The notes beneath the pieces are model-generated. The model was not told the DNA's origin and searched no databases. It saw only the letters and a program-made list of their open reading frames with translations. Shown here one piece after another: positions 1,150 through 11,470 of a DNA stretch of 43,881 nt (its first letter is position 1; each line of letters begins with the position of its first letter). The position numbers and the translations under genes were made by a program. The DNA comes from Desulfovibrio cuneatus DSM 11391 (GTDB lineage: Bacteria > Desulfobacterota > Desulfovibrionia > Desulfovibrionales > Desulfovibrionaceae): contig NZ_AUCY01000028.1 of assembly GCF_000430005.1 (NCBI RefSeq), positions 1 to 43,881 of the forward strand, given 5' to 3'.

Positions 1150-2490
1150 CTATTTTGTTTTAATGGCCAGGGCGGAACGGTTCAGGCCGAAAGATTCCAG
1201 GAACGCTCCACCAAGTGTCATCAGGCGCAGCTTGGCAGCGGTTACGTTCTGCTGGGCAGTAACGAACTGGATAGAGGAGCTGAACAATTCGTTTTCAGAG
1301 TCAAGCACGTCCAACAAGGAGCGCTGCCCAACGTTGAACTGTTCCAGGTACATATCGCGGGTTTTGGTGCTGTACTGCACAGCATTGGCAAAGTGGCGAG
1401 CTTGTTCCTGGGCGGAAAGCATTTGGCTCCAGGTGCTGGCAACTTCATTGCTCAGGCTGTCGCGCAGGGCAGCAAGTTCCTGCTTGGACTGACGGGCACG
1501 GGCTTTGCTGCCGCGAACGTTGTACCAGTCATAACCACCGTTAAACAGGTTCCAGTTGGCACGAAGCATCACAGCAGTACCCCATGCATCGTCGGTGGAA
1601 CTTTCCACACGCCAGCGGTAGCTTGGGCCAGCTTCAAGGAAAATTTGCGGATAGAAAGACGCTTTATCCAGTTCGGCCTGTGAATCGGCAGAGCTTACGT
1701 CGGACTGTAATGCCTTGATTTTCAGGTTGCCAGCCATGGAACGGGCAAGAGCAGATTCAAGGCTGGGCAATGCTTCGCCAGGGGCAGTAGGTTCTGCCAC
1801 TTCAGCAGGGGCTTTGCCGGTAAGGCGCTGGTAATTGGCCATGGCCACTTCCAGGGCAGAACGGCTTTCAGCCAGAGAGGCCTGCGTTCTGGCAAGGCGG
1901 CTTTCAATTTGTGTTACATCTGCCATGGTGGAAGCACCGGAAACCTGGCGCTCTTTCTGGGAACCAAGAATACGCTGGTGGTTGCGCACGTTCAGTTCGG
2001 CAAGGGCTACAATGCGGCGCTGGCGATACACTTCAATGTGTGCCAGGGCAGCATCAAGGCCCAAAGCTTCTGCGTTGTCATAAAGACGCTGCTTGGCAGA
2101 TTCAAGACGGCTTTCCCCAATGTTTACCCGGTTCCAGGTAGCCATGCCATCCCAAATGGTCTGGCTTATGGTCAGGCCAGCTTCACTACGACCGTAGAAA
2201 GTGCCGGCGCGGCCATCCGTGCGGGAAGAACGGTCATGCCAGTCATCTACACCGTACCCACCACGTGCATCCACACGGGGGAACCAGCCACTTCTGGCAC
2301 GCTTCAGGTCATGCTCAGCAGCTTGCCGGTATTCCTGAAAAGCCTTGATGTTTGGGTTATACCCCAAAGTTGAAGAAATAGTGTCTTTGAGGGTAATGGC
2401 AGAACCCGCAGCAAAAGAAACAGAAGGCTCAAAAGCTGTCACAGCAAAAAGTGCAAGTGCAGCAGCCCAGTGCAAAGAAAGTGACTTCAT
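1150..2490 (-). CDS. tolC: TolC-like outer-membrane efflux/secretion channel
   Basis: Outer-membrane factor of about 446 residues, the usual length for TolC-family type I secretion channels. The start at 2490 (MKSLSLHW) is chosen because GAGGAG lies 6 bases upstream; a longer frame from 2514 has no such site. Residues 1-28 look like a signal peptide ending in SFAAG. The rest has the family's duplicated alpha-hairpin pattern: YNPNIKAFQEYRQAA in the first half, and in the second the typical ending NVGQRSLLDVLDSENELFSSSIQFVTAQQNVTAAKLRL. It is divergent from the LapB-like exporter at 2880 and adaptors that would dock onto it, so it probably completes that type I machine across the envelope. The family is also used by drug-efflux pumps; the neighbourhood argues for protein secretion here. 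Its own promoter and terminator are visible. Confidence 0.9.
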   Translation of the reverse strand: MKSLSLHWAAALALFAVTAFEPSVSFAAGSAITLKDTISSTLGYNPNIKAFQEYRQAAEHDLKRARSGWFPRVDARGGYGVDDWHDRSSRTDGRAGTFYGRSEAGLTISQTIWDGMATWNRVNIGESRLESAKQRLYDNAEALGLDAALAHIEVYRQRRIVALAELNVRNHQRILGSQKERQVSGASTMADVTQIESRLARTQASLAESRSALEVAMANYQRLTGKAPAEVAEPTAPGEALPSLESALARSMAGNLKIKALQSDVSSADSQAELDKASFYPQIFLEAGPSYRWRVESSTDDAWGTAVMLRANWNLFNGGYDWYNVRGSKARARQSKQELAALRDSLSNEVASTWSQMLSAQEQARHFANAVQYSTKTRDMYLEQFNVGQRSLLDVLDSENELFSSSIQFVTAQQNVTAAKLRLMTLGGAFLESFGLNRSALAIKTK

Positions 2491-2879
2491 AGGAAACTCC
2501 TCATAATCGAGCATCTCGACATTTTATTGGCGCAAAAGCGTCGTGCTTTCACTTTTGCAAAATGCTTGCCAAAGTGCATTGCTCAACAACTTTTAATTCA
2601 ATTCTTGAGGAATATAAACAAGTATGCGTACAAATGCAACATAAATACTTGCTTCACTCTGAAGCTTCTTGCCAAAAATGTAACCACGACCTACTATAAT
2701 GATAGAAATTTTGCTAAACTTCAAACAAATGACAGAATAAACACTTGGCTAAGTTTTTGAAGTGCGGTACAAGAAGAGGTCTAAATAGGAATGTCCATAC
2801 TATTATTTCCCTACAATTGACTGTTCAGCCACATATAGCATAGGGCGTCAATAAACTGCCGCATCCCGAGGATAACACG
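2491..2879. other. AT-rich divergent intergenic region between tolC and lapB
   Basis: This 389-base region is much more AT-rich than the genes on both sides and holds the tolC promoter. For the plus-strand lapB gene only weak matches are visible, for example TTGGCT, 17 bases, TACAAG near 2745-2773. The small plus-strand frame at 2527-2760 has no convincing ribosome site and composition typical of noncoding DNA. It is a likely place for regulators of both transcription units to bind, but no clear operator is seen. Confidence 0.5.
2611..2639 (-). promoter_or_regulatory. Sigma-70-like promoter of tolC
   Basis: Minus strand: TTGCAT (2634-2639) and TATATT (2611-2616) with a 17-base spacer, about 120 bases upstream of the tolC start, in an AT-rich stretch. 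Confidence 0.6.
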
Positions 2880-5330
2880 GTGACAACCTCTTCCCACAAC
2901 ACCGAAGCAACCACCCCGGAAACTTCCCCCACAAATGAAGCTGCCAGCACACAGGCCGCGCCTGCTCCTTCTGCCCAAACAGCCACGCAAGCTCCTGCAC
3001 AGCCACCTGTGCAAAGCCCTTATGCTGCCCTTGGCGCACCCAGTAGCCCCAACGCTACCAGTGCCCCCGGCGGGCAAGGTGCCCCAGCAGCCCAGGGGCC
3101 CAGCCCCCTTTCCCAGGCGGAAATAGAACAGCTTAAGCGTCAAAACTCTGCCACACCCGACCCTTCGGATGTGGACTACGACCCACCGCTTATCCAGTGC
3201 CTTTCCATGCTGTTTACCCTGCACGGCACGCCTGTTTCCACGCGGTTGCTTAGTGCGGGGCTCCCCAAGTCTTCTGGCCCCCTGCACCCCTCGGCCTGCA
3301 TTCGGGCTGCAAAAGCAGCGGGCATGCGGGCAAGAACAGTGTACCGCCCGTCTTTCAGCCAAATTTCTACCCTTACCCTGCCGTGTATATTATTGTTGCA
3401 AGGCGACAAAGCATGCGTGCTGACCAAGCTGGAAGAAGAAACCGCTGAGGTGCTTTTTCCTGAAACAGGCATGGAACGGCGCACTGTTTCGCGTGAATCG
3501 CTGGAACAGGAATACCTTGGGTATGCCATTTATGCCAAGCCAGAGCCAAAGCTGGACAAACGGGCCAGCGAAATTCGTCTGCTGGACCACAAGCGCTGGT
3601 TTTGGGGCACCCTTGCCCACTTTCTGCCCATTTACTCCCACGTTTTCGGGGCAAGTATTCTGGTAAACTTGCTGGCCATTGCCGGCCCGCTGTTCACCAT
3701 GAACGTTTACGACAGGGTTGTGCCCAACAGTGCCACAGACACGCTGTGGATGCTGGCCATTGGCGTGTGCATTGCCTATATTTTTGACTTTATACTGAAA
3801 AACCTGCGCAGCTACTTTGTGGACGTGGCAGGCCGCAACGCCGACATTATTCTGGCCAGCCGACTGATGCAGCAACTGCTTTCTATGCGCCTGGATGTGA
3901 AGCCAGACTCCACAGGGTCACTGGCCAACAACCTGCGTGAATTTGAATCGTTACGGGACTTTTTCGGTTCAACAACCCTTATGGCCATTGTGGACTTGCC
4001 CTTCCTGTTCCTGTTCATCGGGCTGGTCTTTCTTATTGGTGGCCCCATAGGCTTTATTCCCCTGCTTGCAGTACCCATAGTGGTCCTTACCGGTGTCTTT
4101 TTGCAGTTTCCGCTGCAAGCGGTTACCGAAAAGGGCTTCAAAGAGAACATGCAGAAAAACGCCCTGCTGGTGGAAATTATTAACGGCCTTGAAACCATTA
4201 AAACCACCATGGCCGAAGGGCGCATTCAACACGCATGGGAGCGGGTTGTGGGCATGAGCGCAAGCTCCAACAGCCAGTCCAAGCGCGTATCCAACTTTAC
4301 CATTACCCTGACCATAGCCGTTACCCAACTGGTAAGCGTGTTTATTATTGTCTGGGGTGTGTACCTTATTTCTGAAAACAAGCTTTCCATGGGTGGCCTG
4401 ATTGCTTGTAACATGCTGGCAGGCCGCGCCATGGCCCCCCTTTCCCAAATTGCCTCCATGCTTTCACGCCTGCAGCAGTCACGCATGGCGCTAAAATCGC
4501 TTGACCTGCTCATGAACCTGGAAACAGAGAAGCCGGAAAGCGGAAACTTTGTGGACTTTGGCTACCTGGAGCACTCCATTACCTTTGAGGACGTGTCCTT
4601 CAAGTACCCAGGTTCTGAACGCTTTGCCATGGAAAAGGTCAGCATCCATATTCGCCCCGGCGAAAAGGTGGGCATTATCGGCCGCATGGGCTCTGGCAAA
4701 AGTACCTTTGGCCGCCTTTGCCTGGGGCTGTTCCAGCCTGCGGATGGAGCCGTTAAAGTGGGCGGCGTTGATATTCGCCAACTGGATATGGTCGATGTGC
4801 GCTCACGCTGCGGGTATGTTTCCCAAGACAACTACCTGTTCTACGGCACAGTGCGGGAAAATATTTCCTTTGGCGCCATCAATGCAGACGACCGCATGAT
4901 TCTGCGGGCAGCCAACATAGCCGGTGTTACCGACTTCATTCGCGCCCACCCGGCAGGCTTTGGTATGCCGGTGGGTGAACGCGGCATGTCCCTTTCTGGC
5001 GGGCAGCGGCAGTCTGTTGCCATTTCCCGTGCACTGTTGAATGACCCGGACATTCTTATTCTGGACGAACCCAGCAGTAACATGGATAACAGCTCTGAAC
5101 TGGCACTGAAGCAGCGCCTTGCAGCCACCATGGGGAACAAAACACTGCTGCTGGTAACCCACCGCCTGAGCATGCTTGACCTTGTGGACCGCCTGGTGGT
5201 TATGGACGCGGGACGCATTGTGGCAGATGGCCCGAAAAATGCTGTACTGAACGCCCTGCGCAATGAGCAGTTGCGCACCGCCGCAGCCGCAAAAACAGGC
5301 GGGCAACCAGCCGTGGGCCAGAAAGCATAG
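2880..5330 (+). CDS. lapB: LapB-like type I secretion ABC transporter (ATPase + permease)
   Basis: Inner-membrane exporter of 816 residues that would drive secretion of a large repeat adhesin through the TolC channel. GTG start; GAGG lies 8 bases upstream. Residues 1-100 are a Pro/Ala/Ser/Thr-rich leader. Residues about 100-220 form a C39-like domain (LIQCLSMLFTLHG), which lacks the catalytic cysteine context of true C39 peptidases and so should bind rather than cleave substrate. The transmembrane domain spans about 240-510. The ATPase domain has Walker A GRMGSGKST, signature LSGGQRQ, Walker B ILILDEPSS and H-loop VTHR. The next gene starts 10 bases after the stop, so an operon with the adaptors is likely. 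The low-complexity N-terminal leader is longer than usual for LapB/HlyB proteins. The substrate adhesin is not in the window. Confidence 0.9.
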   Translation: MTTSSHNTEATTPETSPTNEAASTQAAPAPSAQTATQAPAQPPVQSPYAALGAPSSPNATSAPGGQGAPAAQGPSPLSQAEIEQLKRQNSATPDPSDVDYDPPLIQCLSMLFTLHGTPVSTRLLSAGLPKSSGPLHPSACIRAAKAAGMRARTVYRPSFSQISTLTLPCILLLQGDKACVLTKLEEETAEVLFPETGMERRTVSRESLEQEYLGYAIYAKPEPKLDKRASEIRLLDHKRWFWGTLAHFLPIYSHVFGASILVNLLAIAGPLFTMNVYDRVVPNSATDTLWMLAIGVCIAYIFDFILKNLRSYFVDVAGRNADIILASRLMQQLLSMRLDVKPDSTGSLANNLREFESLRDFFGSTTLMAIVDLPFLFLFIGLVFLIGGPIGFIPLLAVPIVVLTGVFLQFPLQAVTEKGFKENMQKNALLVEIINGLETIKTTMAEGRIQHAWERVVGMSASSNSQSKRVSNFTITLTIAVTQLVSVFIIVWGVYLISENKLSMGGLIACNMLAGRAMAPLSQIASMLSRLQQSRMALKSLDLLMNLETEKPESGNFVDFGYLEHSITFEDVSFKYPGSERFAMEKVSIHIRPGEKVGIIGRMGSGKSTFGRLCLGLFQPADGAVKVGGVDIRQLDMVDVRSRCGYVSQDNYLFYGTVRENISFGAINADDRMILRAANIAGVTDFIRAHPAGFGMPVGERGMSLSGGQRQSVAISRALLNDPDILILDEPSSNMDNSSELALKQRLAATMGNKTLLLVTHRLSMLDLVDRLVVMDAGRIVADGPKNAVLNALRNEQLRTAAAAKTGGQPAVGQKA

Positions 5331-5340
5331 GCAAACCATT

Positions 5341-6714
5341 ATGAACGCAATCAAGAAGTTCCTTCATATTTTTAGCAAGGAAAACAACAGAGATCTGCAA
5401 GACATGGAATTCATGTCTACAGTTGATGCGGCGCGTACCTACAAAGGCTCGCCCGTTGCCTATTTCCTTTCCGTGGGGTTGGTGCTCTTATTTATTGCCG
5501 TTCTGATAGCGTCAATGTTCAGCACCCGCGACGAAGTAACCCAGGGGCAAGGGCAAATCATTCCCTCCCAGGGTGTGCAGCCTGTACAAAGCGAAGATGG
5601 CGGCATCATCAAAGAAATTCTGGTAAGCGAAAACGAACTGGTGGAAAAAGGCACGTTGCTGGCCACCATTTCCAACATACGGGCTGTGGGCGAGTTCCAG
5701 GAACTGACCCAGAAAAAAGTGGAATACGAGTTCGCCTTGCAGCGCCTTCGGGCAGAGCAAGACGGCAAAGACCTTGAGTTTACAGAAGAACAGCGTGCCC
5801 AGTTCCCTGATGTTGTGTACGACCAGGAAATGCTGTTTAAAACCCGCAGGGCCCAGTTTGACGGGGAAGGCAAGCAACTTGCCTCTGCCCTGGAACAGCG
5901 CAAGCTGGAACTGGCTGAAAGTTACCAGCGCAGGGAACAGTATGAAAAAAAGTTACTTCTGCTGAAAAAACAGGAAGCCAGCATTTTGCCCCTGGTGCAA
6001 AGTAAAAGCTATTCCCAGGTGGAATACCTGACTTTGAAGCAGCGTATTGTCACCATGGAAAGCGATTTAAAAAGCTTGGCCGTGAATATTGCCCGCACCA
6101 TCAGCGCTGTGGATGAAGCCCAAAATGCGCTGAACAACCGCGAATCTGAGCGGCTTGCCTCCATAGCCAAAGACATTAACGACTTTCACCAGGAACTGAA
6201 CAGCATTACTGAACGCCTGAAGGCTGGCACAGACATTGTGCAGCGTTCGGAGCTGCGTTCCGTAGTGCACGGCGTGGTGAAACGTATTCTTTTGAAAGAA
6301 GAAGCCGTGGTTCGGCCAGCAGAACTGCTTATGGAAATTGTGCCCACTGACGACACCCTGGAGGTGGAAGCCAAATTCCGCCCTGCCCACCGTGGCTTTC
6401 TTGCAGTGGGGCAAAACGCCACCGTCAAAGTTTCAGCCTACGATTCCGCCGTGTATGGCACCCTTTCCGCTACCGTGGCTTCCATCAGCCCGGATACCAT
6501 TGAAGACAACAAAGGTGAGGCCTGGTATGTTGTGCGCCTGCGCACCAGCAGCACCCGCCTGCCCCACCTGGATAAAAACCTGGACATAAAAGTAGGCATG
6601 ACAGTGACTGTTGATGTCCTTTCTGGCGAAAAAAGCATCTTTTCTTACCTTGTGAAGCCGTTGTTCAAGTCCCGCCAGCAAGGCAAGGCCATTGGCTCCA
6701 AGACCACCGAATAA
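5341..6714 (+). CDS. lapC: HlyD-family membrane fusion protein (first of two)
   Basis: Periplasmic adaptor of 457 residues linking the LapB-like exporter to TolC. I choose ATG 5341 (MNAIKKFLHIFSKE), 10 bases after the lapB stop; the longer frame from 5263 overlaps lapB. One transmembrane helix at about residues 41-60 (FLSVGLVLLFIAVLIASMF) is followed by a beta/lipoyl half (GGIIKEILVSENELVEKGTLLA), a long coiled-coil hairpin (residues about 110-300) and the second lipoyl half with beta-barrel (SELRSVVHGVVKRILLKEE, LEVEAKFRPAHRGFLAVGQ). This is the standard LapC/HlyD layout. It has a close paralogue immediately downstream at 6884. Confidence 0.88.
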   Translation: MNAIKKFLHIFSKENNRDLQDMEFMSTVDAARTYKGSPVAYFLSVGLVLLFIAVLIASMFSTRDEVTQGQGQIIPSQGVQPVQSEDGGIIKEILVSENELVEKGTLLATISNIRAVGEFQELTQKKVEYEFALQRLRAEQDGKDLEFTEEQRAQFPDVVYDQEMLFKTRRAQFDGEGKQLASALEQRKLELAESYQRREQYEKKLLLLKKQEASILPLVQSKSYSQVEYLTLKQRIVTMESDLKSLAVNIARTISAVDEAQNALNNRESERLASIAKDINDFHQELNSITERLKAGTDIVQRSELRSVVHGVVKRILLKEEAVVRPAELLMEIVPTDDTLEVEAKFRPAHRGFLAVGQNATVKVSAYDSAVYGTLSATVASISPDTIEDNKGEAWYVVRLRTSSTRLPHLDKNLDIKVGMTVTVDVLSGEKSIFSYLVKPLFKSRQQGKAIGSKTTE

Positions 6715-6791
6715 ATGGTTTCCAGGAGTTAAGTACACGCCTGCTTTGGCGCTTAACAGCGCAAGTGAATTGCGCTTACGCCTGCACAGTG

Positions 6792-6839
6792 GGTAAATGC
6801 GTATGCATTTACCAGAGCATTTTCAAAATAAAATGCTCT
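6792..6839. repeat. Two adjacent perfect palindromes between the paired adaptor genes
   Basis: Two back-to-back hairpins without mismatches: GGTAAATGC/GCATTTACC with a 4-base loop (6792-6813), and AGAGCATTTT/AAAATGCTCT with a 6-base loop (6814-6839). They lie 45 bases before the second adaptor's start. Neither has a following T-run, so they may protect or process the mRNA or form a protein-binding site rather than end transcription. Confidence 0.7.
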
Positions 6840-6883
6840 CAAGCCAGAACACATACCTCTTTTTGAAGGGAACAGGATACCGC

Positions 6884-8215
6884 ATGAGCGTTTTTTGGGA
6901 AAAATCAAGCGACCCACTGAACATGACATTCATGGGAGATGTTGACGCTGCCATGCACCGGCGCGGGCACCCCTTGGCGTTTACATTGAGCATTGTGGTT
7001 GTTATGTTTTTTGTGTTAACCTATATTTGGGCCAACTTTACCATGATTGAAGATGTGGTGCGCGGCAACGGCAAGGTCATTCCTGCGGCTGGCGTGCGCG
7101 ACATTCAAAGCGATAAGGGCGGCACTATTTCTGAACTGCGTGTGCATGAAGGCGATATGGTAGAAGCCAACCAGGTGGTAGCTGTGGTGGCAAACGTGGG
7201 TGACGTAAGCGCCCTGCGTGAACTGCAACAGCGCGTATCAGAACTGGAATTTGCCTTGTTGCGCCTGAAGGCTGAAGCCGAAGGCATTCCACTGGAATTT
7301 CCTGCGGAAAGAATGGCAGAATTCCCCCAGGTAGCGCAAAACCAATTGCATATTTTCACCAGTAACGAGCAGCGCTTCCAAGGGGAAGATAACCAATTAC
7401 GGGCTCAAATTGAGCAGCGCCGCCAGGAAGTGGCAGCCGCACTGCAAGACAAGGTGCGTTTTCAGGGCAGCCTGGAAATTCTGCGTAGCGAAGAAGCAAC
7501 AGTGCGCCCACTGGTGGGGCGTTCTTACTCACAAATTCAGTACCTCGATTTACAAGAACGCATTGTTTCCATTGAAGGGGAACTGGCCGGAGCAGAACAA
7601 ACCATTGCCAGGGCGCAAAGTGCCGCCGTTGCAGCGGAAGACCGCCTGAACACCCGGGAAGCTGAACGCCAGGCCGCTATTGCCCTGGAACGCAACAAAA
7701 GCCGCATGGAACTGGATGCTTTGAAACTGCGGGTACACACCTGGACAGAACAAGTGAGCCGGGCAGAATTACGCTCTCCTGTGAATGGTTCAGTGAAAGC
7801 CATTAATGTAAAAGAAGGCAGCGTTGCCCGCCCGGCCGATATTTTGATGCAAATCATTGCCTCAGATGACGTGCTGGAAATTGAGGCCAAATTTGCCCCG
7901 GCAGACAGAGGCTTTCTGTATATTTCCCAAAAGGGCATGGCCAAGTTTTCCAGCTATGATGCCAACATTTATGGTGGCTTGCCTGCCAAGGTTACTCGCA
8001 TTTCAGACGACACAATTCCAGACAAACGCGGCGACCCATGGTATGAAGTGCGTCTTGTAACATCGCGCAAAAGTATTAAGTACCAAGGCAAGGAATTGCC
8101 CATTATGCCCGGCATGACAGTAAGCATTGACCTGTTAACGGACAAACGCTCTGTACTGGACAGGATACTTGGCCCATTGCGCCGCGCCCAGGACAATGCC
8201 ATGACAGAACACTAG
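6884..8215 (+). CDS. Second HlyD-family membrane fusion protein, paralogue of the preceding gene
   Basis: Adaptor of 443 residues. ATG 6884 (MSVFWEKSSDPLNMTFMGD) has AGGA 6 bases upstream; the frame extending back to 6797 runs through the palindromes and is not used. It shares with the first adaptor the N-terminal pattern F-M-x-x-V-D-A-A, a single helix (about residues 38-58), the GGTISELRVHEGDMVE lipoyl segment, the coiled coil (SYSQIQYLDLQERIVSIEGEL matches SYSQVEYLTLKQRIVTMESDL) and the C-terminal barrel (ADRGFLYISQKGMAKFSSYDA). Two similar adaptors in a row suggest tandem duplication; they could form a mixed ring or serve different substrates. The export role follows from the family and the neighbours. 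Confidence 0.87.
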   Translation: MSVFWEKSSDPLNMTFMGDVDAAMHRRGHPLAFTLSIVVVMFFVLTYIWANFTMIEDVVRGNGKVIPAAGVRDIQSDKGGTISELRVHEGDMVEANQVVAVVANVGDVSALRELQQRVSELEFALLRLKAEAEGIPLEFPAERMAEFPQVAQNQLHIFTSNEQRFQGEDNQLRAQIEQRRQEVAAALQDKVRFQGSLEILRSEEATVRPLVGRSYSQIQYLDLQERIVSIEGELAGAEQTIARAQSAAVAAEDRLNTREAERQAAIALERNKSRMELDALKLRVHTWTEQVSRAELRSPVNGSVKAINVKEGSVARPADILMQIIASDDVLEIEAKFAPADRGFLYISQKGMAKFSSYDANIYGGLPAKVTRISDDTIPDKRGDPWYEVRLVTSRKSIKYQGKELPIMPGMTVSIDLLTDKRSVLDRILGPLRRAQDNAMTEH

Positions 8216-8384: not shown

Positions 8385-9317
8385 ATGAAAACAGCCGCGC
8401 CTGCAAACATCCCAGCACACGCCATTTGCGAGCTCCCTTGTCCTGTGAAAGGGCTTTTGCTGCATGCATGCCTGTTGTTATTCTTCTCCGTGCTGGGCAT
8501 GGCCCCTGGCAATGTATGGGCTGCCAACTTGAGCCTGGAAAACCACCAGGACATTCTGGGCCTGGACCAAGAAACTCCGGATACCCCCGTAGCCAAAAAG
8601 CCCCGTACTCCGGCTTCTGCCGTGGGCGACAAAGCGGGTGAAGGTATGGTCCCCCCCCAGGTGGAAGAAGAAGTTGAAGAAACTACACCTGCCTCAGAGC
8701 CAGACCCGAAAGCCGAAGCACCTGCCGACAAGCCAAAGCCAATACACCTTTTTGGGCATGTGGAATTTCGTGGGCCACTCAAGAACATTCCTAAATGGGA
8801 ACGGGTGCTGAAAGAAGAGCAAAAGGCCCCTTCCTACGGCGCAGGCAACAGCACAGGTATGCCGGAAGAAGTGCGCAAGCGCTGGTTGCCCATGCGGGAA
8901 AAGCTTATGGGCCAACCCTTAATGGATCAACTCAAAGCCGTTAACAACTTTTTTAACCAATGGCCTTACAAAAATGACATCGCCAATTGGGGGCTTGAAG
9001 ACTATTGGGCTACGCCCAAAGAGTTTTTCAAGAAGTCTGGTGACTGTGAAGATTATGCCATTGCCAAATACTATGCATTGCGCGACCTTGGCGTTCCAAC
9101 CCACAAAATGCGTATTGTGGCGGTTATGGAAACCATCAGGGGCATAGGCCATGCTGTGCTAGTTGTTTTTGTTGATGATAAAGCGTATGTTCTGGATAGC
9201 CTTTCCAACTTGCTTTTGCAGCATAGCAGACTTACCAACTACGCGCCAAAATTTTCAGTCAATGAAGAGTTTCGCTGGGTGCATGTAAAACCAGTGCAGC
9301 AACCAAAGAAAAAGTAG
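8385..9317 (+). CDS. lapG: LapG-like periplasmic transglutaminase-fold cysteine protease
   Basis: Protein of 310 residues from ATG 8385. The start is uncertain: no good ribosome site is seen and a TTG at 8355 is possible. A hydrophobic stretch (LLLHACLLLFFSVLG) about 25 residues in fits an export signal with a long n-region. An acidic, Pro-rich linker follows (about residues 60-120). The C-terminal half is the LapG (peptidase C93, DUF920) domain with its triad: Cys221 in SGDCEDYAIAKYYALRDLG, His256 in GIGHAVLVVF and Asp271 in AYVLDSLSN. In Pseudomonas fluorescens LapG cuts the N-terminus of the adhesin LapA and is held back by the c-di-GMP receptor LapD. Here it follows the exporter and adaptor genes and precedes a membrane sensor at 9395, so it probably controls release of the adhesin secreted by this system. 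Confidence 0.88.
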   Translation: MKTAAPANIPAHAICELPCPVKGLLLHACLLLFFSVLGMAPGNVWAANLSLENHQDILGLDQETPDTPVAKKPRTPASAVGDKAGEGMVPPQVEEEVEETTPASEPDPKAEAPADKPKPIHLFGHVEFRGPLKNIPKWERVLKEEQKAPSYGAGNSTGMPEEVRKRWLPMREKLMGQPLMDQLKAVNNFFNQWPYKNDIANWGLEDYWATPKEFFKKSGDCEDYAIAKYYALRDLGVPTHKMRIVAVMETIRGIGHAVLVVFVDDKAYVLDSLSNLLLQHSRLTNYAPKFSVNEEFRWVHVKPVQQPKKK

Positions 9318-9394
9318 CGGGGAAGTGGGAAGCCAGCCATGCACGCAACGCCACAAGCCGTACCAAAAAGAATACCAACAGTTTGGAGAAACAC

Positions 9395-11470
9395 ATGAGC
9401 GGGTTAACAAAACTCAAGGCCATGGAAGCACGGTCTGCCACAGGAAGGGGAAAGCAACTGCTGCTTTTTGGTGTGTTTATTACTCTGGTACTTATAGGCG
9501 TTGTCTTTTTTGCCGCCTTCCAGAATGCACGCTCCACGCGCATTGCCCTTGAAGAAGATGTGCGAAGCCGCCAGCAAAGCCAGGTGGAAAGCCGCACCTT
9601 TGCCATGAACAGCTGGATTAACCAGACAGTGGACCAAGCCAAACACTTTGCCAATTCAGAGCTTATTCAGTTGTTTGCCTCTGAAGTGGACAAAATGGAC
9701 AACATTCCGCTGCTGTTCGACACCAGCAAAAGCGACTCGGCGGATGACGACGACCAGCCCTCTTCCCGCCTGCCGCTTATGCGCACCCAGCTTGTGGAAT
9801 TTGCCTCTTACCGCAACTTCGAATCTGGGCGCATTGTGAACAGCAAGGGCGAGGTATACTTAAGTACGGAAACAGGCCTGCCCCCACTGAATGAAACCCA
9901 AATGGCCCTGGTAAAAAAAGTGGTCAGCACGGGCAAGGTCACATTTGGGCCGATAACCAAAAACAGAAACGGTCTTTCCCTGGAAATGTACCTGCCTGTG
10001 TTCCCGCCCATGTATGAAGAACAAGGCGGAAAGCCAGCTTCTATCATCATTTTTTCCCAAATTATCGGCCCGGTGCTGAACAGCTTCCTGCAACAGGACA
10101 TGACAGAAAAAGACCGCTGGTTCAGCCTTGTGCAGCGCTCAGGCAATGGCTACCAAACCATAATGCTGGAAGGGCTGCAAATTAAGCCGGTGACCAACCT
10201 TGGCGAATTGGACGCAAACCTTGTGTTTACCATGCGCCAGAGCAGCATTTCAGAGGAACTTGTCTATTCTTCCGGCATGCGCCTTTCCTCCATTGACTGG
10301 TGGGTAGTGGCTGAAGAAAAAGCCAGCCGCATAACCCATGCCTCACAGGAACATGCGCGCACTGTCTATATACTGGCAGGCCTCGTTTCCCTGGCCCTGG
10401 TACTCATGATAAGCGCTACATGGTGGTGGCTTATCGGGCGGGAACAAGGCAACATTAACGCCCAGTTTAAAGAGCTGCTGGTAGTTATTGAAAACCAGAA
10501 AAAGCTCCTTGACGGCATTAACAACACCATGGACGACCCCATTTCCTTTACGGATTCCAAAGGGGTGTACCGTTATGTAAACAAGGCCTTCGCCCAGGTG
10601 GTGGGGCGTGAAGAAGACGATGTGAACGGGCTGGATACCGCAGCAGTGCTTGGCTTTGATACTGCAAAACGCCTGAACCTTTCAGACCAGCACGTGCTTA
10701 TGACCGGCGAGCCAACACAGGTACAAGACGTGCTGTGGCTGCAATCCAAGCGCTATATCTTCCAAATTACCAAAAGCCCCATGCGCGACTCACAAACACG
10801 CACACCGCAAGGGGTGGTTTCCGTTTACCGCGACATAACCCAGCTTGTGGAAACACAGGAAAAAAGCCGCCGCGTAGTGCAGCAAACCATTGACGCGCTG
10901 GTAGGCACCATTGAACAGGCAGACCCCTTCCTTGGTGGGCACTCACGTATTATGGGCAGCATAGCCAGCCTGATGGCCCGCCAGTTGCGCCTGCCAGACC
11001 CCAACGTTGCCACCATTGAAGCAGCCGCCAACCTTTCCCAAATCGGAAAAATGTTTGTCCCGCGGGAAATTTTGCTGAAGCCGGGCATGCTGACCCCAGA
11101 AGAAAAAGCAGAAATGGAACTGCATGTGGAACATTCCCGCCAGGTATTGAAAAACATTGAATTTGAGTTGCCTGTGGTGGATGCCATTTACCAGCTCAAT
11201 GAACGCCTTGATGGAAAAGGCTACCCTCAAAAATTGCAGGCTGACCAAATTTCCATTGATGCACGGGTACTGGCAGTGGCCAACGCCTTTGCCGCCATGG
11301 CCCGCCCGCGTGCCTACCGCCCTGCCCTGCCAGTGCATGAAGTACTGGGCATTCTTGAAAGCCAGAAAGGAGCCTACGACCAGGAAGTTGTGGCGGCTCT
11401 TACCGCTGTGCTGGAAACCCCGGCAGGCCAAAAGGTTGTGGAACAGGCTGCTTTGACCAAGGCCGTTTAA
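9395..11470 (+). CDS. Membrane sensor with periplasmic domain, PAS and degenerate HD-GYP domain
   Basis: Protein of 691 residues. ATG 9395 is chosen because GGAG lies 6 bases upstream. Layout: helix 1 at about 22-42 (LLLFGVFITLVLIGVVFFAAF), a periplasmic region of about 275 residues (Cache-like), helix 2 at about 322-345, a PAS domain (LLDGINNTMDDPISFTDSKG) and an HD-GYP-type output domain. In active c-di-GMP phosphodiesterases of this class one expects H...HD.GK...H..HHE..DG.GYP. Here the HD pair reads SQ (LSQIGK) and HHE reads LNE, while GYP (LDGKGYP) and part of the fold remain. So metal binding and catalysis are probably lost, and the domain may only bind c-di-GMP or signal by shape. It follows lapG, where a LapD-type receptor might be expected. 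Domain assignment is by motif only. Confidence 0.8.
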   Translation: MSGLTKLKAMEARSATGRGKQLLLFGVFITLVLIGVVFFAAFQNARSTRIALEEDVRSRQQSQVESRTFAMNSWINQTVDQAKHFANSELIQLFASEVDKMDNIPLLFDTSKSDSADDDDQPSSRLPLMRTQLVEFASYRNFESGRIVNSKGEVYLSTETGLPPLNETQMALVKKVVSTGKVTFGPITKNRNGLSLEMYLPVFPPMYEEQGGKPASIIIFSQIIGPVLNSFLQQDMTEKDRWFSLVQRSGNGYQTIMLEGLQIKPVTNLGELDANLVFTMRQSSISEELVYSSGMRLSSIDWWVVAEEKASRITHASQEHARTVYILAGLVSLALVLMISATWWWLIGREQGNINAQFKELLVVIENQKKLLDGINNTMDDPISFTDSKGVYRYVNKAFAQVVGREEDDVNGLDTAAVLGFDTAKRLNLSDQHVLMTGEPTQVQDVLWLQSKRYIFQITKSPMRDSQTRTPQGVVSVYRDITQLVETQEKSRRVVQQTIDALVGTIEQADPFLGGHSRIMGSIASLMARQLRLPDPNVATIEAAANLSQIGKMFVPREILLKPGMLTPEEKAEMELHVEHSRQVLKNIEFELPVVDAIYQLNERLDGKGYPQKLQADQISIDARVLAVANAFAAMARPRAYRPALPVHEVLGILESQKGAYDQEVVAALTAVLETPAGQKVVEQAALTKAV

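Follow-up and report, generated by a model that had tools for sequence, protein, structure and literature searches.

A DvhD-type receptor with a degenerate HD-GYP domain lies beside a LapG-family protease in Desulfovibrio cuneatus DSM 11391 and probably takes the place of LapD

The window, which is the complete 43,881-nucleotide contig NZ_AUCY01000028.1 of Desulfovibrio cuneatus DSM 11391, contains a gene for a putative membrane receptor immediately after the gene of a LapG-family protease, which itself follows a set of type I secretion genes (Table 1). The reading frame of the receptor is open from a TTG codon at 9383 to the stop codon ending at 11470 and comprises 695 amino acids. Since a GGAG motif is located at a plausible spacing upstream of the ATG at 9395, this codon is the likely start, which corresponds to the gene boundaries of the initial annotation and gives a 691-residue product. 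The same annotation had described a two-helix membrane protein with a periplasmic domain and a PAS domain, and this layout was confirmed. The hydropathy profile had two long hydrophobic stretches at residues 22–40 and 324–342, Pfam recognised the PAS and HD_5 domains, and the periplasmic part matched a solved structure over residues 57–314 of the 695-residue frame. The Pfam match to dCache_1 was weak (E 1.7e-4, 21.7 bits, below the cut-off of 45).

Table 1. Positions of the receptor gene, its domains and motifs, and the neighbouring genes in the window
Feature	Position	Strand	Evidence and remarks
TolC-like outer membrane factor, divergent	1150..2514	-	PF02321 E 4e-61
Type I secretion permease/ATPase, LssB type	2880..5330	+	TIGR03375 E 5e-287; start unrefined
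Type I secretion membrane fusion protein, first of two	5263..6714	+	TIGR01843, PF13437; start unrefined
Type I secretion membrane fusion protein, second of two	6797..8215	+	TIGR01843, PF13437
Probable lapG/dvhG orthologue, Peptidase_C93 protease	8385..9317	+	C-H-D triad and adjacent D-C-E; frame open from TTG 8355, ATG 8385 chosen
Probable dvhD orthologue, 691 aa: two-TM receptor with periplasmic dCache, PAS and degenerate HD-GYP	9395..11470	+	
Periplasmic dCache-like domain	9551..10324	+	phmmer vs 9rc2 E 1.2e-39; 33% identity over 258 aligned residues
PAS domain	10529..10849	+	Pfam PAS_4 E 4.3e-16; within 9rc0 match E 3.7e-111
Degenerate HD-GYP domain	10907..11389	+	Pfam HD_5 E 1.1e-40; 9rbz match E 3.7e-69
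SQ where the catalytic HD pair is expected	11036..11041	+	alignments
LNE where HHE is expected (MNE in the closest relatives and DvhD)	11195..11203	+	alignments
GYP motif, retained	11219..11227	+	

The gene order of ABC transporter, membrane fusion protein, LapG, and DvhD recurred in those relatives with loci long enough to show it. The tandem HlyD-type membrane fusion pair of the window (5263–8215) was present with both members in 10 of the 11 nearest loci (L019–L029, with L025 cut off), and a single membrane fusion protein was found in L030–L033, L035–L043, and L046. No adhesin gene was recognised in the operon within the window. The window is the whole contig, and an adhesin gene may therefore lie past the contig end.

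In the HD-GYP domain, the motif NLSQIGK starts at residue 546, QLNE starts at residue 600, and GYP occupies residues 609–611, which agrees with the earlier reading of SQ for HD, LNE for HHE, and an intact GYP. A third change was found in the metal site, where the Asp of active proteins (the D of DVF, DVY, DIF, or DAF) is replaced by Asn. Besides GYP, the domain retains the GHSR histidine and the lysine that corresponds to position 582 of DvhD. The genome yielded 11 HD_5 hits, and SQ and LN were confined to the window protein. Because all ten other HD_5 proteins keep both the HD and HH pairs, the degeneracy is not a matter of chance, and alignment with them confirmed that HD, HH, and the further Asp had all been replaced.

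These positions were then read in a family set of 97 rows (89 distinct), of which 95 came from fetched loci and one each from D. vulgaris and the window; the set excludes L045, which fell under the score threshold used, and retains same-genome copies from two collections. The HD position was SQ in 94 rows including the window, SH in two, and LH in one, and none of the 97 rows had HD. HH was likewise absent from all 96 readable rows, with MN in 56 rows and LN in the window row alone, and the second Asp position was Asn in 97 of 97 rows. SQ is a family trait of DvhD-like receptors.

A phmmer search of the window protein against solved structures returned six matches at E ≤ 0.01, of which the top three were entries of DvhD from D. 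vulgaris, covering the PAS/HD-GYP region (9rc0), the HD-GYP domain (9rbz), and the periplasmic domain (9rc2), and the identity over 320 residues of the PAS/HD-GYP region was 55%. The active phosphodiesterases PmGH (4mcw/4mdz) and 4r8z were also matched; they share an HD-GYP domain with GYP, but the HD and HH metal ligands of PDB 4MDZ and 4R8Z are lost in the window protein. With a homologous dCache domain, a PAS domain, a degenerate HD-GYP domain in which SQ is present and HH is not kept, and a gene adjoining a C93/BTLCP protease of the LapG family and type I secretion genes, the window protein shares these characteristics with the DvhD family.

DvhD and DvhG of Desulfovibrio vulgaris Hildenborough (DVU1020/DVU1019, also named BfsD/BfsG) have been described in PMC13090378 (Nat Commun 2026). 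DvhD carries SQ for HD and Met-Asn for HH, binds c-di-GMP with an average effective Kd of 99 nM, and showed no hydrolysis in the assays described there. Binding of c-di-GMP splays the stalk helices, and the periplasmic domain is a dCache domain. The data support the view that DvhD controls the LapG-like protease DvhG in a c-di-GMP-dependent manner, with the mode of restraint stated to be still unknown, and the authors describe DvhD and LapD as molecularly distinct and functionally analogous. The system is present in other Desulfovibrionales according to the same source, and the reconstitution experiments on the control of DvhG are the 2024 PNAS work cited in PMC13090378 and PMC11784015. The window locus resembles DvhDG in domain order, in SQ for HD, in the retained GYP, in Asn as the second residue of the HH pair, and in the adjacent protease and type I secretion genes. 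It differs in having Leu instead of Met in the HH pair, in four substitutions at ligand contacts (Y523F, E668Q, K520A, and R569E), in its two tandem membrane fusion proteins, in a LapG start that, judged by eye, resembles a signal peptide more than an anchor, and in the lack of a recognisable adhesin gene in that part of the operon which the contig covers.

A canonical LapD elsewhere in the genome was sought by domain search and among the EAL proteins, and none was found. The LapD periplasmic domain PF16448 had no hits in the genome, and none of its four EAL proteins carries this domain; the assembly is 96% complete, and a LapD could therefore have been missed. Since PF16448 was also silent in the control genomes of this search, it was extended to the phylum, where 10 of 297 genomes matched, seven of them above the cut-off. 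One genome from a different family of this order (G004) encodes a canonical LapD with LapD_MoxY_N, GGDEF, and EAL domains beside LapG, and the pair belongs to a type I secretion operon (L124:4369-7107); the order thus contains both designs of receptor. In the window protein itself, Pfam found PAS, HD, and a weak dCache only, with neither a LapD/MoxY domain (PF16448) nor a GGDEF-EAL module. Like LapD of Pseudomonas fluorescens, the window protein would be an inner-membrane c-di-GMP receptor that has a dead c-di-GMP enzyme domain and restrains a periplasmic LapG, but the LapD/MoxY periplasmic domain and the HAMP-GGDEF-EAL portion of LapD are all absent from it.

The distribution of the pair was surveyed in 247 genomes of the order. 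Some match to the window protein at E ≤ 1e-20, ordinary HD-GYP proteins included, was found in 218 genomes, and a C93 protease (PF06035) was found in 123. Of the 150 matches listed, 106 had a C93 protease no more than 2.5 kb away, and the best 73 were all among these; at least 106 of the 123 C93-bearing genomes have a receptor–C93 pair among these matches. The remaining 17 may in part have receptors outside the matches listed, and at least one of them, G004, has LapD instead. In all 27 genomes with two receptors among the matches listed, one receptor was beside a C93 protease and one was not. The nearest named relatives were mostly metagenome bins labelled 'Desulfovibrio sp.'.

In a quick tree of 90 cytoplasmic regions rooted on L045, the window fell in a set of 12 rows (SH-aLRT 99, starred), and together with DvhD of D. 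vulgaris in a set of 28 rows (SH-aLRT 85, not starred). The use of the rooting to derive an ancestral state was rejected, as L045 is the sole candidate outgroup and forms a long branch whose join was flagged by the tree program. This locus (L045:7286-10130, in a record titled Geminicoccaceae bacterium) encodes a DvhD-like receptor with SQ and MH after a LapG-like protein. The receptor keeps the second Asp, unlike the 97 family rows with Asn, and the catalytic Cys region of the LapG-like protein reads GNAED instead of GDCED, so that the protease looks dead from its sequence.

Two further Peptidase_C93 proteases are encoded on contig 7 of the D. cuneatus genome (L104:7347-9327 and L103:9864-10784), giving three in total. 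One is directly after a GGDEF protein and the other is beside a 375-aa protein, and neither stretch contained a match to DvhD. A contig 7 protease and its preceding GGDEF protein were considered as an alternative regulatory pair and rejected, as the cyclase was unmatched by tblastn in nine second-copy loci of related genomes (L113–L121).

The best adhesin candidate of the genome was a 4214-aa RTX protein on contig 13 (L108:6041-18685) with a FecR/retention-like N-terminus and cadherin- and Ig-like repeats. The LapA retention model scored 37 bits on it, below the cut-off of 50, and the motif [TAP]AA[GS] was absent from its first 600 residues. A single [TAP]AAG occurs at position 693, which is no more than chance given that 0.83 occurrences are expected by composition. 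As judged from the sequence, this protein is the likeliest exported adhesin of the genome, lacking a convincing LapG cleavage site. When 15 genomes of the genus were searched with the retention model, three gave a match at E ≤ 0.01, and the cut-off was not attained in any of them.

Considering these results together, we assign a probability of about 0.9 to the reading that the window gene is a dvhD orthologue in a Lap-like adhesin-control system of the DvhDG type, in which an HD-GYP domain unable to hold the catalytic metals serves as the c-di-GMP receptor that restrains the adjacent LapG. Binding of c-di-GMP would rearrange the stalk helices of the receptor dimer, and the change would be relayed through the PAS domain and the two membrane helices to the periplasmic dCache domain. 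The dCache domain would then restrain the LapG-type protease encoded immediately upstream, keeping a type I secreted adhesin anchored, and a drop in c-di-GMP would free the protease and release the adhesin. By analogy with DvhD, we infer that the window protein binds c-di-GMP and contacts LapG; the DvhD-type behaviour and the choice of the adhesin that is cut are likewise drawn from that homologue. In the initial annotation, a dead HD-GYP protein had been proposed to replace LapD as the inside-out c-di-GMP receptor that acts on LapG. This mechanism is very probably right by homology to DvhD, and the role fits with the lack of a detectable LapD-type domain, but its description as a new design does not hold, as DvhDG has already been published with this design (Nat Commun 2026; PNAS 2024, through its citation in PMC13090378 and PMC11784015).

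It is extremely improbable that the domain is still a phosphodiesterase using some other metal arrangement. The retained GYP, lysine 582, and GHSR histidine would fit an active enzyme, but the HD, HH, and further Asp ligands are replaced by SQ, LN, and Asn, HD and HH are intact in all ten further HD_5 proteins that the genome encodes, neither pair occurs in any readable family row, and the D. vulgaris homologue gave no c-di-GMP hydrolysis with any ion added in the assays described in PMC13090378. The nature of the ligand leaves somewhat more room. Six of the eight canonical c-di-GMP contacts named in PMC13090378 are identical in the window protein (L577, K582, Y621, M646, R650, and Y652), with Y523F and E668Q altered, whereas only P567 is identical among the three bridging contacts, with K520A and R569E altered. 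In the family set, K520 and R569 were each found in the D. vulgaris row alone (1 of 97), E668, to which nucleotide specificity is credited in DvhD (PMC13090378), was present in 13 of 97 rows, and P567 in 96 of 97. DvhD itself also binds 3′3′-cGAMP, approximately fivefold more weakly than c-di-GMP (PMC13090378). The window receptor might accordingly answer another dinucleotide such as 3′3′-cGAMP, or function without the bridging site, with a switch that differs from DvhD in detail. We regard this as unlikely, given that P567 and the six canonical contacts are retained and that 8 of the 12 GGDEF hits in the genome fit the ordinary diguanylate cyclase pattern ending in GD, the other four being outside the pattern altogether. 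The GxxGS form is associated with cGAMP synthases, and none of the eight has it.

The other alternative concerns the target, namely that the receptor acts on the type I exporter or on one of the other C93 proteases, either in place of the adjacent LapG or in addition to it. Of the 95 locus rows, 26 place the family receptor in a type I secretion operon with no LapG closer than 2.5 kb. SQ receptors in such operons without a neighbouring lapG were seen in genus g14 (L099–L101 and L125–L131) and in g8 (L132–L134). In eight of the g14 genomes with such a receptor, no C93 protease was found by PF06035, and a nine-row LapG profile was negative in all eight and positive in the five control genomes, which are the other five of those 13 genomes. 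In the g14 operon, an Ig-like protein (Big_13 in L099) precedes the ABC transporter, membrane fusion protein, and receptor genes, and a further protein is weakly similar, below the cut-off, to peptidoglycan-binding models. The GYP tyrosine was kept in all 26 exporter-linked rows. Six LapG-linked rows of g3 (L089, L091, L094, L096, L097, and L136) have GQP, GLP, or GHP instead of GYP and Asn at the position of Y523, and two more g3 rows (L098 and L144) were unreadable at the tyrosine. A second, exporter-linked receptor was read in five of those six g3 genomes (L088, L090, L093, L095, and L135), always with GYP. The c-di-GMP binding of the LapG-linked g3 copies may thus be altered, to judge from these residues. 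The word 'paralog' is absent from the main text of PMC13090378, although second receptor copies may have been described elsewhere.

The LapG-less operons of these eight genomes and the three C93 proteases of D. cuneatus speak for a target other than the adjacent LapG, but the window receptor directly follows lapG, the best 73 of the 150 matches listed are all near a C93 protease as well, and the D. vulgaris homologue controls DvhG in the reconstituted system (PMC13090378, PMC11784015), which makes such a target quite unlikely here. Because the family occurs in LapG-less type I secretion operons, and because some LapG-linked copies lack the GYP tyrosine while the exporter-linked copy keeps it, one could also suppose that SQ HD-GYP receptors are primarily adhesin-exporter receptors with LapG as one output, and that the targets of the window protein may include the exporter or the two other C93 proteases. 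This broader view is speculative, and we give it little weight against a DvhD-type receptor acting on its neighbouring LapG.

The D. cuneatus locus extends the DvhDG design with a dead catalytic site, itself already published, to a further lineage. Polar contacts in the bridging c-di-GMP site described for DvhD are poorly kept in the family, which calls the generality of that site into question. The less ordinary leads are the LapG-less SQ receptors of eight genomes and the six LapG-linked copies without the GYP tyrosine. As the receptor family reaches exporter operons without LapG, what those receptors control becomes a testable question.
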